NCBI RefSeq assembly: GCF_021389935.1
Contig: NZ_CP089979.1
Location: 3,205,001 to 3,269,000, forward strand
Direction: 5' to 3'
Length of the DNA: 64,000 nt
Source: Fulvivirga ligni
GTDB lineage: Bacteria; Bacteroidota; Bacteroidia; Cytophagales; Cyclobacteriaceae
The translations under genes and the position numbers were made by a program. The notes under the pieces are model-generated. The model ran no database searches, had not been told where the DNA came from, and worked only from the letters and a program-made list of their open reading frames with translations. Shown here one piece after another: positions 42,087 to 45,222 of this stretch. Every line of letters begins with the position of its first letter. Within the stretch, counting starts at the first letter, position 1.

Positions 42087-43809
42087 CGGCCTGCGAATCA
42101 TAAATAGTGACTGGTTGTGGCCCGTAGTTATTCTATCTGGGTTGCTGATGGCCCTTCTATTGATTAAAGAGATCAGAAGAAAGGATAAAAAACAGTTATT
42201 CATACGAATAATGCTCAGCTTTTTAAGTGTCATTCTGGTTGCCCTCATGTTTTTGAAGTTGGAAACAAAGCAAACCGTGAAGGGCGAGTTTCTGGCATTA
42301 CTTACAGAAGATTTTAGACAGGATCAGTTGGATAGTTTAAGGCGGCTATACCCACATTTAGAAGAGGCAAACTATGCATCCGGTTTTGAAAGAGATAAGA
42401 GGTTTCATACCGTATTCGTGCTTGGAAATGGCATTCCTTCCTATGACCTTCACAGATATGACTCATCGTCAATGCTTTATCTGGGTGCTAAGTCCTTAGA
42501 AGGAATTATAGATTTAAAATATACTTATGTGGTGAAGCAGGGAGATGAACTAGTTATTGATGGAAAATACAGGCACAATCATTCGGTTTCCTTACTATTG
42601 AAGGAGGAGGATAAAGTGCTTGACTCTACATTTCTGAAATCTGATAAAGATGACTTCTATTTTGCCATTGATACAAAAGCATTCGGGAACAGACTTTACA
42701 TCATACAAGAAATAGATAGCACAGGGAAGGTAACTAATTCAGAACCGCTCCCTGTTACAGTAGAGCCACGGGAAAAACTGAATATTTTAATGATTAATCA
42801 GTTCCCAACGTTCGAATCTAAATATTTAAAGAACTTTCTAGGGGAGGAGGGGCATCATATTGCAATCAGAAATGAGCTTACCACTGATAAATTCAAATAC
42901 GAATATATTAACCAAGACCCTGTTAATTTTAGGTATGTGGTTCCTAATGTACTGCAGGCTGTAGATCTAATTATTTTAGATGCAGCTTCTCTGAATAAGC
43001 TATCAAATAATGAGTTGATCTCCTTAAGCAAAGCCATTTCGGAGCAAGGTTTAAATTTATTGATTCAACCCGATGATGAATATCTCAATAGTAGGAGAAA
43101 TAGGACCTGGGATCCTTTCAAGTTTTTGAAAAATAATAAAACTTCTGTTTCTATTAACGAGCAGGCATACAGCTGTTTTTCATATAGCATAAAGCCTGAT
43201 TTATTTACTATTCCACTTCTCTCTGATGATAATAAGGATTTACTAACTGCTTATGGTCTGCATGGCTCAGGAAAAATAGCCACCTCATTATTGAAGAATA
43301 CTTATGAGTTATGGTTGGCTGGAAAGCAAAATGAATATAAGAAATTATGGAGACGTATAATTTCAGGAATTTCTGAATCAAATTCTTATAAATATTTTGA
43401 GAAAAGTGATAACATGCCTGTAAGTTATTTGCATGAATCTACACTTTTTAGATTATCGTCATTGGATTTCCCAATGATCAAGGGCAGTGGTGAAAGTACG
43501 TATGGTTTAGAGAAGAACCTGTTAAAAAACGAATGGAATTTTAAGATTTGGAACAGTAAAGTAGGGTGGTCACATTTATACCTAGAAAATGACTCTTCCT
43601 CTCATGTAAGTTATTACGTTGCTGGCGATGAGGAATGGAAGGCTCTGAAAACGAACCAATTAAGAGAAGCGAACGCTCGCTATTTTTCAGTAAAGAACGA
43701 TCAGGATGAAGCTTTCAGCGTAGCGCAATGGAAGCCAATGAATTATTGGTGGCTTTTTTGTCTGTTTGTGATCTGTGCTGGATATTTGTGGCTTGAACCG
43801 AAGTTATAA
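42079..43809 (+). CDS. Membrane protein with glutamine-amidotransferase-like domain, MoxR-operon associated
   Basis: A 576-residue protein with two membrane helices at residues 12-55, a soluble part and a C-terminal helix (WWLFCLFVICAGYLWL). The middle third (LNILMINQFPTFESKYLKNFL, DLIILDAASLNKLS) resembles the Rossmann-like fold of class I glutamine amidotransferase-like domains found next to BatA proteins, but there is no catalytic Cys elbow. Overlaps the previous gene by 8 bp. Confidence 0.75.
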   Translation: MIDGLRIINSDWLWPVVILSGLLMALLLIKEIRRKDKKQLFIRIMLSFLSVILVALMFLKLETKQTVKGEFLALLTEDFRQDQLDSLRRLYPHLEEANYASGFERDKRFHTVFVLGNGIPSYDLHRYDSSSMLYLGAKSLEGIIDLKYTYVVKQGDELVIDGKYRHNHSVSLLLKEEDKVLDSTFLKSDKDDFYFAIDTKAFGNRLYIIQEIDSTGKVTNSEPLPVTVEPREKLNILMINQFPTFESKYLKNFLGEEGHHIAIRNELTTDKFKYEYINQDPVNFRYVVPNVLQAVDLIILDAASLNKLSNNELISLSKAISEQGLNLLIQPDDEYLNSRRNRTWDPFKFLKNNKTSVSINEQAYSCFSYSIKPDLFTIPLLSDDNKDLLTAYGLHGSGKIATSLLKNTYELWLAGKQNEYKKLWRRIISGISESNSYKYFEKSDNMPVSYLHESTLFRLSSLDFPMIKGSGESTYGLEKNLLKNEWNFKIWNSKVGWSHLYLENDSSSHVSYYVAGDEEWKALKTNQLREANARYFSVKNDQDEAFSVAQWKPMNYWWLFCLFVICAGYLWLEPKL

Positions 43810-44006
43810 TGAGCAAGTCGAAAAAGGTATTTTTAATAGTAGCAATCGTGTTTTTTGTGGTTATTGTCTATCTGGGATATGATATATCCTCCAGAACCAC
43901 ATTTCCTGGATCAAAGCCACAATTGAAAGAGAGGCTGATGAATAGTGGCAGTGATGAATCTAACTCTGACAGCACTAAGTTCATAACTCCTCAAGACTCC
44001 ATTTAA
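43809..44006 (+). CDS. Small single-pass membrane protein, operon end
   Basis: A 65-residue protein with one N-terminal helix (VFLIVAIVFFVVIVYLGYDI) and a Ser/Asn/Asp-rich tail. Its ATG overlaps the upstream stop by one base (TAATG), a typical coupled start, so it is real despite its size. Function unknown; probably an accessory subunit of the MoxR-DUF58 system. Confidence 0.7.
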   Translation: MSKSKKVFLIVAIVFFVVIVYLGYDISSRTTFPGSKPQLKERLMNSGSDESNSDSTKFITPQDSI

Positions 44007-44108
44007 TCTCAACCATTCGTCTCCCAAAACAGCGGCTTGTCGATCATCGATTGTCATTGGTCGACGGTAGATTGTGGTTCAGATTCTTTGCTATTACCTT
44101 AGTATCAA
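44007..44108. other. Intergenic stretch, first 102 bp of the 406-bp gap
   Basis: No gene. Two imperfect copies of GTCGA..ATTGT (near 44040-44075) are present and the -33-like ATTG (44071-44074) and -7-like TACCTTAG (44095-44102) of the small RNA candidate are at the right end. Confidence 0.5.
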
Positions 44109-44171
44109 TTAAAGCCAACTATAGACAACAATTATCCCTTGGAGCTAGGTCTTCAAGGGATTTTTGTTTTT
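44109..44171 (+). ncRNA. Candidate small RNA / structured element, copy 1
   Basis: Starts with TTAAAGCCAACTATAGACAA, 6 bp after the box TACCTTAG (44095-44102). A hairpin follows: ATCCCTTG (44134-44141) pairs with CAAGGGAT (44154-44161), and a U-rich run (TTTTTGTTTTT) closes it, as in a Rho-independent terminator. Total about 60 nt. The same 20-nt start, hairpin length and tail recur at 44285 with compensated stem changes. No protein is encoded. Confidence 0.7.
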
Positions 44172-44284
44172 ATACAGTTCTTGATTTGTTATTAATTATA
44201 TATAATAGATGACAATATAACCTTGTAAGGTATTGACCCATTTTAAATTTATTTTATCAAATAGTAGCCTTATCTTAGCAATAG

Positions 44285-44348
44285 TTAAAGCCAACTATAG
44301 ACAACGAAATATCCTCTCGAGGCCAGGCCTTGGAGGATATTTTGTTTT
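44285..44348 (+). ncRNA. Candidate small RNA / structured element, copy 2
   Basis: Same TTAAAGCCAACTATAGACAA start, 6 bp after TATCTTAG (44271-44278), with TTTA (44248-44251) 19 bp upstream of that box as a -33. Hairpin ATATCCTC (44309-44316) with GAGGATAT (44333-44340), then TTTGTTTT. Compared with copy 1 the two inner stem pairs C-G, T-A become T-A, C-G, so pairing is kept while sequence changes. The next gene starts at 44413. Confidence 0.7.
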
Positions 44349-44412: not shown

Positions 44413-45222
44413 ATGTCAGGTAATAAAATTTTCACTTCATTATTAATTCTTCTTCTTATTTTTCAATTAACAGGTTGCAAGGTTAGCGGAGACCCTGAGC
44501 CTCAGATAGATTGCAGTCAATCTGGGCTAAAAGTAGAACTGCTAGAACTTGCGAATGTATCTGGTTGTGATAAGGAGGATGGGAGCATTACAGTGCAGGG
44601 ATCAGGAGGAGAAGGTCAGCTCACATTTAATATTAATGGCGGTAGTTTTCAGGGCGATCCTAGTTTCGATAATCTAAAAGCAGCCACTTACTCTATTATA
44701 GTTCAGGATGAAAATGGATGTACGGCTTCATCATTCTTCACGGTAAAGACGGATGGTGCCAGCGTGGCCATTTCCGAGGTGCAGGTAGCAGAGGCTGGCT
44801 GTGGTTCTGCTGAAGGTAATTTGAGCATAATAGCTACAGGAAACGGAGAGGTAATGTATAAACTAGGTAACGGAGCCTTTCAAGCATCTCCGGATTTTAC
44901 GGGCTTAACTAGTGGTAACTATGAAGTAACTGTGAAGGATGAGACCGGGTGTACTACCAGCCAGCAAGCATACGTTAATAGTGGAATCTCTTATGATGAT
45001 GAGGTGAAGGCCATTATTACGGCCAACTGTTTTGGTAGTGGCTGTCATGATGGGGGCACAGGTTCATCTACAAATTGGACTAACTTTCAAAATGTGCAAA
45101 ACCACGCTGCTCAGATCAAGTCTCGTACCCAGAGTGGATCAATGCCACCTAATGGATCACTGTCTCAGGATGAGAAAGATAAAATTGCCTGTTGGGTAAA
45201 TGATGGAGCTTTGGATAATTGA
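44413..45222 (+). CDS. Lipoprotein with SprB-like repeats and a C-terminal CX4CH haem-like motif
   Basis: A 269-residue lipoprotein (signal ending LTGCKVSG). Residues about 35-105 and 110-180 are two SprB-type repeats (GSITVQGSGGEGQLTFNINGG, NLSIIATGNGEVMYKLGNG, each followed by GxYxVxVxDxxGC). The last 70 residues hold CFGSGCH (CX4CH) and, later, SMPPNG with a Met, an arrangement of many cytochrome c-like domains. Whether haem is attached is not shown. It lies beside the small RNA candidates and upstream of the sugar-oxidation locus with cytochromes. Confidence 0.75.
   Translation: MSGNKIFTSLLILLLIFQLTGCKVSGDPEPQIDCSQSGLKVELLELANVSGCDKEDGSITVQGSGGEGQLTFNINGGSFQGDPSFDNLKAATYSIIVQDENGCTASSFFTVKTDGASVAISEVQVAEAGCGSAEGNLSIIATGNGEVMYKLGNGAFQASPDFTGLTSGNYEVTVKDETGCTTSQQAYVNSGISYDDEVKAIITANCFGSGCHDGGTGSSTNWTNFQNVQNHAAQIKSRTQSGSMPPNGSLSQDEKDKIACWVNDGALDN

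Follow-up and report, generated by a model that had tools for sequence, protein, structure and literature searches.

What do the two copies of a 20-mer, TTAAAGCCAACTATAGACAA, encode in the genome of Fulvivirga ligni? The stretch of DNA that we analysed (the window, 64 kb in length) carries this sequence at 44109–44128 and 44285–44304 and nowhere else, and shuffling predicts 0.01 matches to it in the window when up to 3 mismatches are allowed. The first-pass annotation of the window, which had reported the 20-mer twice, read the locus as a tandem duplication of small RNA (sRNA) genes with promoter-like boxes and compensatory hairpin changes, or alternatively as leader elements. We find that the two copies form an ungapped repeat of 36 nt at 86% identity, with a second block of 27 nt at 74%. 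The boxes TACCTTAG and TATCTTAG each lie 6 bp before the 20-mer, at the spacing originally described, and a terminator-like hairpin with a T-rich tail is indeed present behind both 20-mers. Of the two −33 elements proposed, that of copy 1 stands, with TTG at this place, while that of copy 2 is weak, because the place reads TTT. The features of the locus are as follows.

43809–44006, forward strand: 65-aa ORF, small membrane-protein-like, directly preceding the sRNA copies in the window; no Pfam match.
44072–44074, forward strand: −33 element of copy 1, TTG, which matches the TT peak that 186 distinct cores show at −39/−38, counted from the first A of AAAGCC.
44095–44102, forward strand: −7 box of copy 1, TACCTTAG, of the TAnnTTTG type.
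44107–44129, forward strand: leader of sRNA copy 1, AATTAAAGCCAACTATAGACAAC, near-invariant in homologues; +1 predicted at 44107 from the position of the box.
44134–44171, forward strand: predicted intrinsic terminator hairpin of sRNA copy 1, with arms at 44134–44144 and 44151–44161; fold z of −5.6, and stem covariation.
44271–44278, forward strand: −7 box of copy 2, TATCTTAG, recognized from its sequence and the family alignment.
44283–44305, forward strand: leader of sRNA copy 2, AGTTAAAGCCAACTATAGACAAC; +1 predicted at 44283 from the sequence and the position of the box.
44303–44348, forward strand: predicted terminator hairpin of sRNA copy 2, with arms at 44303–44316 and 44333–44346 (inverted repeat); fold z of −7.0.
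44413–45222, forward strand: 269-aa ORF downstream of copy 2, lipoprotein-like and containing the motif CFGSGCHDGG; weak Ig-like Pfam matches only.

The terminator of copy 1 has the apical loop CTAGG and a T tract that ends at 44171, and the predicted RNA is ~65 nt long; copy 2 has the loop CCAGG and a T-rich tail, with a predicted RNA of ~66 nt. Both segments, of 75–76 nt, fold far better than their dinucleotide shuffles, with the z scores given above and 0 of 200 shuffles doing as well. The compensatory changes claimed for the stems are also real, i.e. ATCCCTT/AAGGGAT in one copy against ATCCTC/GAGGAT in the other, with paired differences. In an alignment of 54 homologous copies that was fitted to the structure, 17 of 18 stem pairs have changed on both sides, 88.3% of cells are paired (67.1% when shuffled and at most 61.9% in slid controls), and stem covariation reaches 0.554 (0.186 shuffled and at most 0.122 slid). 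The apical loop reads CYAGG in all seven F. ligni copies.

These seven are the only strong copies of the element in the F. ligni genome (6.52 Mb, one contig), and include the two in the window, two tandem pairs at ~4590138–4591562, and one copy at 1511442. Six matches to an 18-mer with 3 mismatches are also present in this genome at chance level; the reversed pattern gives 10, and the three of these sites that we inspected (L008, L012, and L013) were rejected as sRNA copies. Among 147 genomes of the taxonomic family, a covariance model built from the seven copies (R1) detects the sRNA in 28, distributed over 15 of 84 genera, and the covariance-model search for homologues in Bacteroidota that had been proposed at first pass thus returns conserved ones. 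At least two copies are found in 19 of the 28 R1-positive genomes, and most pairs start 164–190 nt apart. The maximum is 12 copies in a single genome (G107). Nine of these are on one contig, in two runs with a period of ~263 nt (L070:5860–9400), and the remaining three are split between two other contigs (two and one); the nine-copy array is likely a recent tandem expansion.

A second covariance model has matches in 23 of 390 genomes of the order and, phylum-wide, in 5 of 395 genomes, all of the same taxonomic family and one of them the doubtful G057; absences in the order and phylum searches are soft, because few candidates were scored per genome. Six order-level matches outside the taxonomic family (L082, L083, L085–L087, and L089) were rejected: they are terminators that lack AAAGCCAAC, and some of them resemble the leader in part. 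Also rejected was L084 inside the family, which has a leader-like stretch by eye but no T-tailed hairpin. Second-model matches inside the family are doubtful in G057, G301, and G493. Two weak matches, L453 and L088 (in G493 and G301), show AATTAAGCCAACTATTACC or ATAAAGCCAACTAAAAC before a terminator, and represent possible distant members of the sRNA family in another genus. An exact 19-mer scan of GTDB contigs recovers at least 118 stretches. Among the 80 matches listed, all are from Bacteroidota by name, including Fulvivirga, Chryseolinea, Pseudochryseolinea, Parachryseolinea, Chryseosolibacter, Ohtaekwangia, and many Cyclobacteriaceae or Flammeovirgaceae.

The comparison with Rfam, also proposed at first pass, assigns the copies to no known family. 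Specifically, no Rfam 15 family reaches its gathering score in the window, and at E ≤ 10 four loci return leader- or terminator-like and chance matches but no family. Among the literature matches listed, from a search that covers subscription papers thinly and lies outside bioRxiv preprints, we find neither this RNA described nor any study of sRNAs from Fulvivirga or Chryseolinea; where these matches do treat sRNAs of Bacteroidota, they deal with Bacteroides, Porphyromonas, and Flavobacterium. The sRNA family is apparently undescribed.

When 186 distinct cores are aligned on the leader, four conserved islands emerge and the remainder is little conserved. The islands are a TT at −39/−38, a TAnnTTTG-type box at ~−17 to −10, a near-invariant stretch at ~−3 to +16, and a C-rich/G-rich stem with a T tail. 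This profile was drawn from exact-19-mer sites, and leader conservation in it is inflated because the exact 19-mer was required; 3 of the 187 underlying sites later proved not to be sRNAs, and the copies found by covariance model are a less biased set for conservation. With the filters set in this analysis, a hairpin plus T run is present in 184 of the 187 sites and the box in 158 of these 184, i.e. the copies carry a promoter and a terminator of their own. The TAnnTTTG box of Flavobacterium is described as spanning −12 to −5 of the start site (PMC9723704, in the text available). Applied to the copies, this spacing puts the RNA start 4–5 nt before AAAGCC in 123 of the 158 boxed copies, so that the predicted +1 is where the conserved leader begins. 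Folding predictions leave most of this leader unpaired, with a mean probability of at least 0.88 over the first 15 of its 22 positions and of 0.3–0.8 at its 3′ end, and the unpaired average exceeds 0.8 in 65% of copies.

We infer transcription and its start sites from this anatomy. The small-RNA reading of the first-pass annotation gains from it in three ways, i.e. promoter, leader, and terminator are kept as a unit in many genomes, the leader lies at the predicted +1, and the hairpin covaries. That the two copies are small-RNA genes is well supported by the sequence comparisons. Each copy would be a free-standing gene, transcribed from a sigma-A-type promoter, for a regulatory RNA of ~65 nt that begins with a single-stranded seed of ~20 nt and ends in an intrinsic terminator.

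The surroundings of the copies are partly conserved. Of the 23 loci compared, 13 (window included) have ORFs of the same cluster as the 65-aa ORF (c2), and in many of the 23 the sRNA copies come immediately behind a membrane-protein-like ORF of 61–65 aa. Relatives of the 269-aa lipoprotein-like ORF, whose CFGSGCHDGG we take to be a haem-binding-like motif, come after the sRNA pair in some other genera, and several of the 23 loci have the copies before cytochrome-like lipoprotein, YceI, and DUF5777 genes. The sRNA also has a second conserved position, flanked by genes for a PfkB-family kinase and a CarboxypepD_reg protein (F. ligni 1511442 [L010]; L067; L068).

Given that copy 2 ends 64 nt before the lipoprotein-like ORF, and that the sRNA pair precedes a cytochrome-like gene in other genera, the copies might instead act in cis, as leaders or attenuators of the genes behind them, or be no more than terminators. 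However, the next predicted gene is convergent at five copies (F. ligni 1511442 and 4591355; L066, L067, and L068), so that copies can be free-standing genes and not leaders, and a terminator does not need the conserved leader. We regard such a cis-acting or terminator role as very improbable, and the leader-element alternative raised at first pass does not hold as a general role, several copies having no same-strand gene directly downstream. A dispersed repeat (REP or MITE-like) without host function would suit a multi-copy element with nine members on one G107 contig, but dispersal of this kind sits poorly with a syntenic position kept across genera, with the retention of promoter and terminator, and with a covarying stem, and we give it next to no credence.

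If the copies are free-standing sRNA genes, which messages might they act on? The exact complement of the seed 11-mer is not enriched genome-wide in 22 sRNA-bearing genomes, with 142 sites (55 of them self) versus 113 for the reversed control. We followed 80 of the 87 non-self sites, leaving out G115:C11, G054:C180, and five of G122, and at least three of the 80 are themselves sRNA copies (L244, L245, and L303). Among the 80, the 5′ regions yield one orthologous pair, located before the gene for a single-domain response regulator (PF00072) in G132 and G127; other conserved pairs fall inside coding regions. Regulator orthologues gathered by protein similarity, and not by complementarity, also carry the site. 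For example, 9 of the 10 closest orthologues have TGTCTA or a near form, a variable spacer, and then (A)GTTGGCTTTAA or a near form; the site follows a TAnnTTTG box in 8 of the 10 and is the 5′ arm of an inverted repeat in most of them. The usual block pattern is absent from G084, which has another duplex (−17.6), one seed pair is broken in G074, and divergent regulator orthologues keep shorter forms of the site.

The location of the site differs between genera, i.e. the mRNA 5′ end versus the start-codon region. In Chryseolinea-type genomes it starts 64–117 nt before the start codon, and the predicted pairing involves the predicted mRNA 5′ end and the 5′ arm of the hairpin there. Fulvivirga orthologues have ACTAGTTGGCT just before the ATG. 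Specifically, the F. ligni site (4243665–4243673, 9 bp) ends two bases before the ATG at 4243676 and thus spans −11 to −3, and complementarity of at least 9 nt is found in 3 of 871 F. ligni start regions, the regulator's included.

Outside the regulator, the two-block pattern gives 16 non-self matches in 26 genomes versus 16 for the control, and in F. ligni five versus 0. Two of these five F. ligni sites, complementary to the leader, remain candidate leads to further targets: L370:1195–1211 (F. ligni 906195), at the end of a nitrite-reductase-small-subunit-like gene and 80 nt before a sensor-kinase-like ORF (by eye), and L373 (F. ligni 5772831), just before an ORF that looks protease-like by eye. 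Other receiver genes in G104 and G033 (L390, L405, and L414) have no site. Separately, G137 has two similar stretches around AGTTGGCTTTAG (L285 and L287), perhaps a small repeat family.

The distribution of the site follows that of the sRNA. A regulator profile with a threshold of E ≤ 1e−32 finds an orthologue in 54 of the 147 genomes, among which we examined the 16 that are R1-positive, G075, and 13 of the other 37. The regulator 5′ region is complementary to the leader in all 18 sRNA-bearing genomes that have the regulator (−13.5 to −23.7 kcal/mol) and in none of the 13 examined genomes that have the regulator and no sRNA found. The 16 R1-positive genomes span this whole range, the weakest matches being those of G137, G076, and F. 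ligni (−13.5 to −14.1), whereas 12 sRNA-negative genomes lie between −3.9 and −9.0; another sRNA-negative genome, G120, which had no ATG in the first scoring, is at −8.0. In G075, a site at −18.4 is present though R1 has no match, and the second model with laxer filters recovers six tandem sRNA copies with diverged leaders there; this locus is a successful prediction from the target site. In the 13 sRNA-lacking genomes, the second model gives weak matches in 7 (E of 0.005–0.48), and the seed core is absent from all 10 loci examined.

Controls agree with this pattern. With 1000 shuffled leaders, P ≤ 0.011 in 17 of 17 sRNA-bearing genomes, G075 included, and P ≥ 0.15 in 13 of 13 lacking the sRNA; G008, which was found via its sugar transferase, has P = 0.014. 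The Mann–Whitney P-value is 2e−6, or 4e−6 without the two discovery genomes. Upstream control regions (n = 898) have a mean duplex energy of −8.7 (sd 2.5), with −18.4 for the best other gene, and four of the five strongest among them, still in the set, are the regulator itself with other start codons. The co-occurrence statistics are tempered by the relatedness of the genomes; on the regulator tree, the sRNA label needs four changes, of which well-supported branches force only one. What the comparisons establish at the level of sequence is an RNA family, its predicted structure, and a complementarity found only where the RNA exists. A conserved accessible seed is thus matched by a complementary conserved mRNA, which was not found in 11 of the 29 sRNA-bearing genomes, eight of these 11 being at least 96% complete, so the regulator cannot be the only target and others must exist. 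The sugar-transferase loci of sRNA-bearing genomes without a regulator match (14 loci examined out of 18 rows) have no site at or below −14 except in G008, which has the operon.

Pfam assigns the gene that follows the regulator to the PF02397 sugar transferases in both genomes scanned. By motif scan, 12 of 16 positive loci have a transferase close to the regulator, and in G017 and G137 one is also seen by eye, while G015 and G093 have no transferase after the regulator. In F. ligni, the start of the transferase gene overlaps the end of the regulator gene, and glycosyltransferase-like and methyltransferase-like ORFs follow (by eye). Enzymes of PF02397 typically start exopolysaccharide or capsule synthesis.

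We consider it likely that the copies are free-standing sibling sRNAs of ~65 nt whose seed pairs with the regulator/transferase mRNA, the likeliest outcome being repression of operon translation. The sibling copies would share the seed of ~20 nt, which would base-pair with the 5′ region of a message that encodes a CheY-like single-domain response regulator and usually a sugar transferase of the exopolysaccharide type. In Fulvivirga, pairing over −11 to −3 would block translation initiation. In Chryseolinea-type genomes, the seed would sit on the 5′ end of the mRNA, and the hairpin there would be opened or replaced; the effect could be repression at a distance or activation. Copy number would set the dose. 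We infer the actual pairing and the sign of regulation from these comparisons, and repression is favoured over activation.

Activation would come about if pairing with the 5′ arm opened the hairpin at the 5′ end of the regulator mRNA and so prevented early termination or exposed the message. This is unlikely, though it deserves to be taken seriously: the Chryseolinea-type site does overlap the 5′ arm of the inverted repeat GGCTTTAAAGATCC...GGTCTTTAAAGC, which in several genomes is followed by a T-rich stretch, but this A/T-rich hairpin would make a weak terminator, and in both Fulvivirga genomes, G008, and G076 a site is so near the start codon (within ~25 nt) that pairing would block initiation. 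Two further readings dispense with pairing as the function. In one, the leader is a protein-binding site and the RNA a decoy, as in 6S or CsrB; a leader conserved beyond the needs of a seed, the CYAGG loop common to the seven F. ligni copies, and the multiple copies, which suit titration, are all compatible with it. We nevertheless think it improbable, since it leaves unexplained why the reverse complement of the leader stands before one orthologous gene only where the RNA is found; decoy and pairing roles could coexist. In the other, a single transcription factor binds the motif as a DNA operator past the start site of the sRNA genes and, reversed, of the regulator gene. The motif does follow the promoter box closely, both in the sRNA genes and, in opposite orientation, in 8 of 10 regulator regions. 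Yet the two complementary blocks of the target are separated by a spacer of variable length, a recurrent GGC to GGT change keeps a G–U pair, an operator has no need of a conserved terminator ~20 nt downstream, and the Fulvivirga site abuts the start codon, all of which make an operator a shade less probable still than a decoy.

As putative sibling sRNAs with a predicted pairing seed, the copies probably fit the class of tandem sibling trans-acting sRNAs, in which one genome has at least two highly similar genes; F. ligni has seven. Their closest likeness in arrangement is to OmrA/OmrB of Escherichia coli, which are also tandem genes with a shared 5′ end (~21 nt) and pair with the 5′ regions of regulator mRNAs. 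The OmrA/B model is among the 4227 families of Rfam, and no Rfam 15 match places the copies in the OmrA/OmrB family. Targets of OmrA/OmrB are described as including csgD (biofilm matrix), with a site within a stem-loop away from the start codon (PMC4211561 and PMC3634460, in the text available), and csgD as being repressed at a distance (PMC3634460, likewise). By contrast, the present family belongs to another phylum and has another promoter type and seed, its divergent part is the terminator itself, it reaches 12 copies, its candidate target encodes a CheY-like regulator and, in most cases, a sugar transferase, and it has no known inducer or chaperone. The best reading is that these putative sibling sRNAs are analogous but unrelated to OmrA/OmrB.

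PrrF1/PrrF2 and AbcR1/AbcR2 are similar in being duplicated, highly similar sRNA genes, and the PrrF genes are reported as tandem in P. aeruginosa (PMC4211561, in the text available). In other Pseudomonas, they lie apart. Our family differs from PrrF and AbcR in lineage and targets and shows no evidence of iron control, their sequences having been compared via Rfam only. Flavo-1 and other Rfam motifs from this phylum are likewise Bacteroidota non-coding elements. Rfam holds flavo-1, and no Rfam covariance model, flavo-1 included, reaches its gathering score in the window. A conserved sRNA of the same phylum, Rfp18 of Flavobacterium psychrophilum, is comparable by description, with knock-out evidence reported for effects on its predicted targets (PMC9723704, in the text available). 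Unlike the family studied here, Rfp18 is reported to pair via a third stem-loop and to act on metalloproteases.

The candidate target was recovered by genome comparison alone, and the target site pointed to an sRNA locus that R1 had missed and the second model recovered. With the family, its seed, the candidate target gene, and the site specified, this putative sRNA circuit of environmental Bacteroidota becomes directly testable. More tentatively, the data may reflect a Cytophagales sRNA family that has co-evolved with one main message, the regulator/transferase operon, through 5′-end-to-5′-end pairing, in which 1–12 copies would serve as a copy-number dial on surface polysaccharide; in Fulvivirga, the site would have left the mRNA 5′ end for the start codon with the partner gene unchanged. 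Because the candidate target is linked to polysaccharide synthesis, the sRNAs may act on slime, capsule, or biofilm, and it is slime or capsule production that they probably control.
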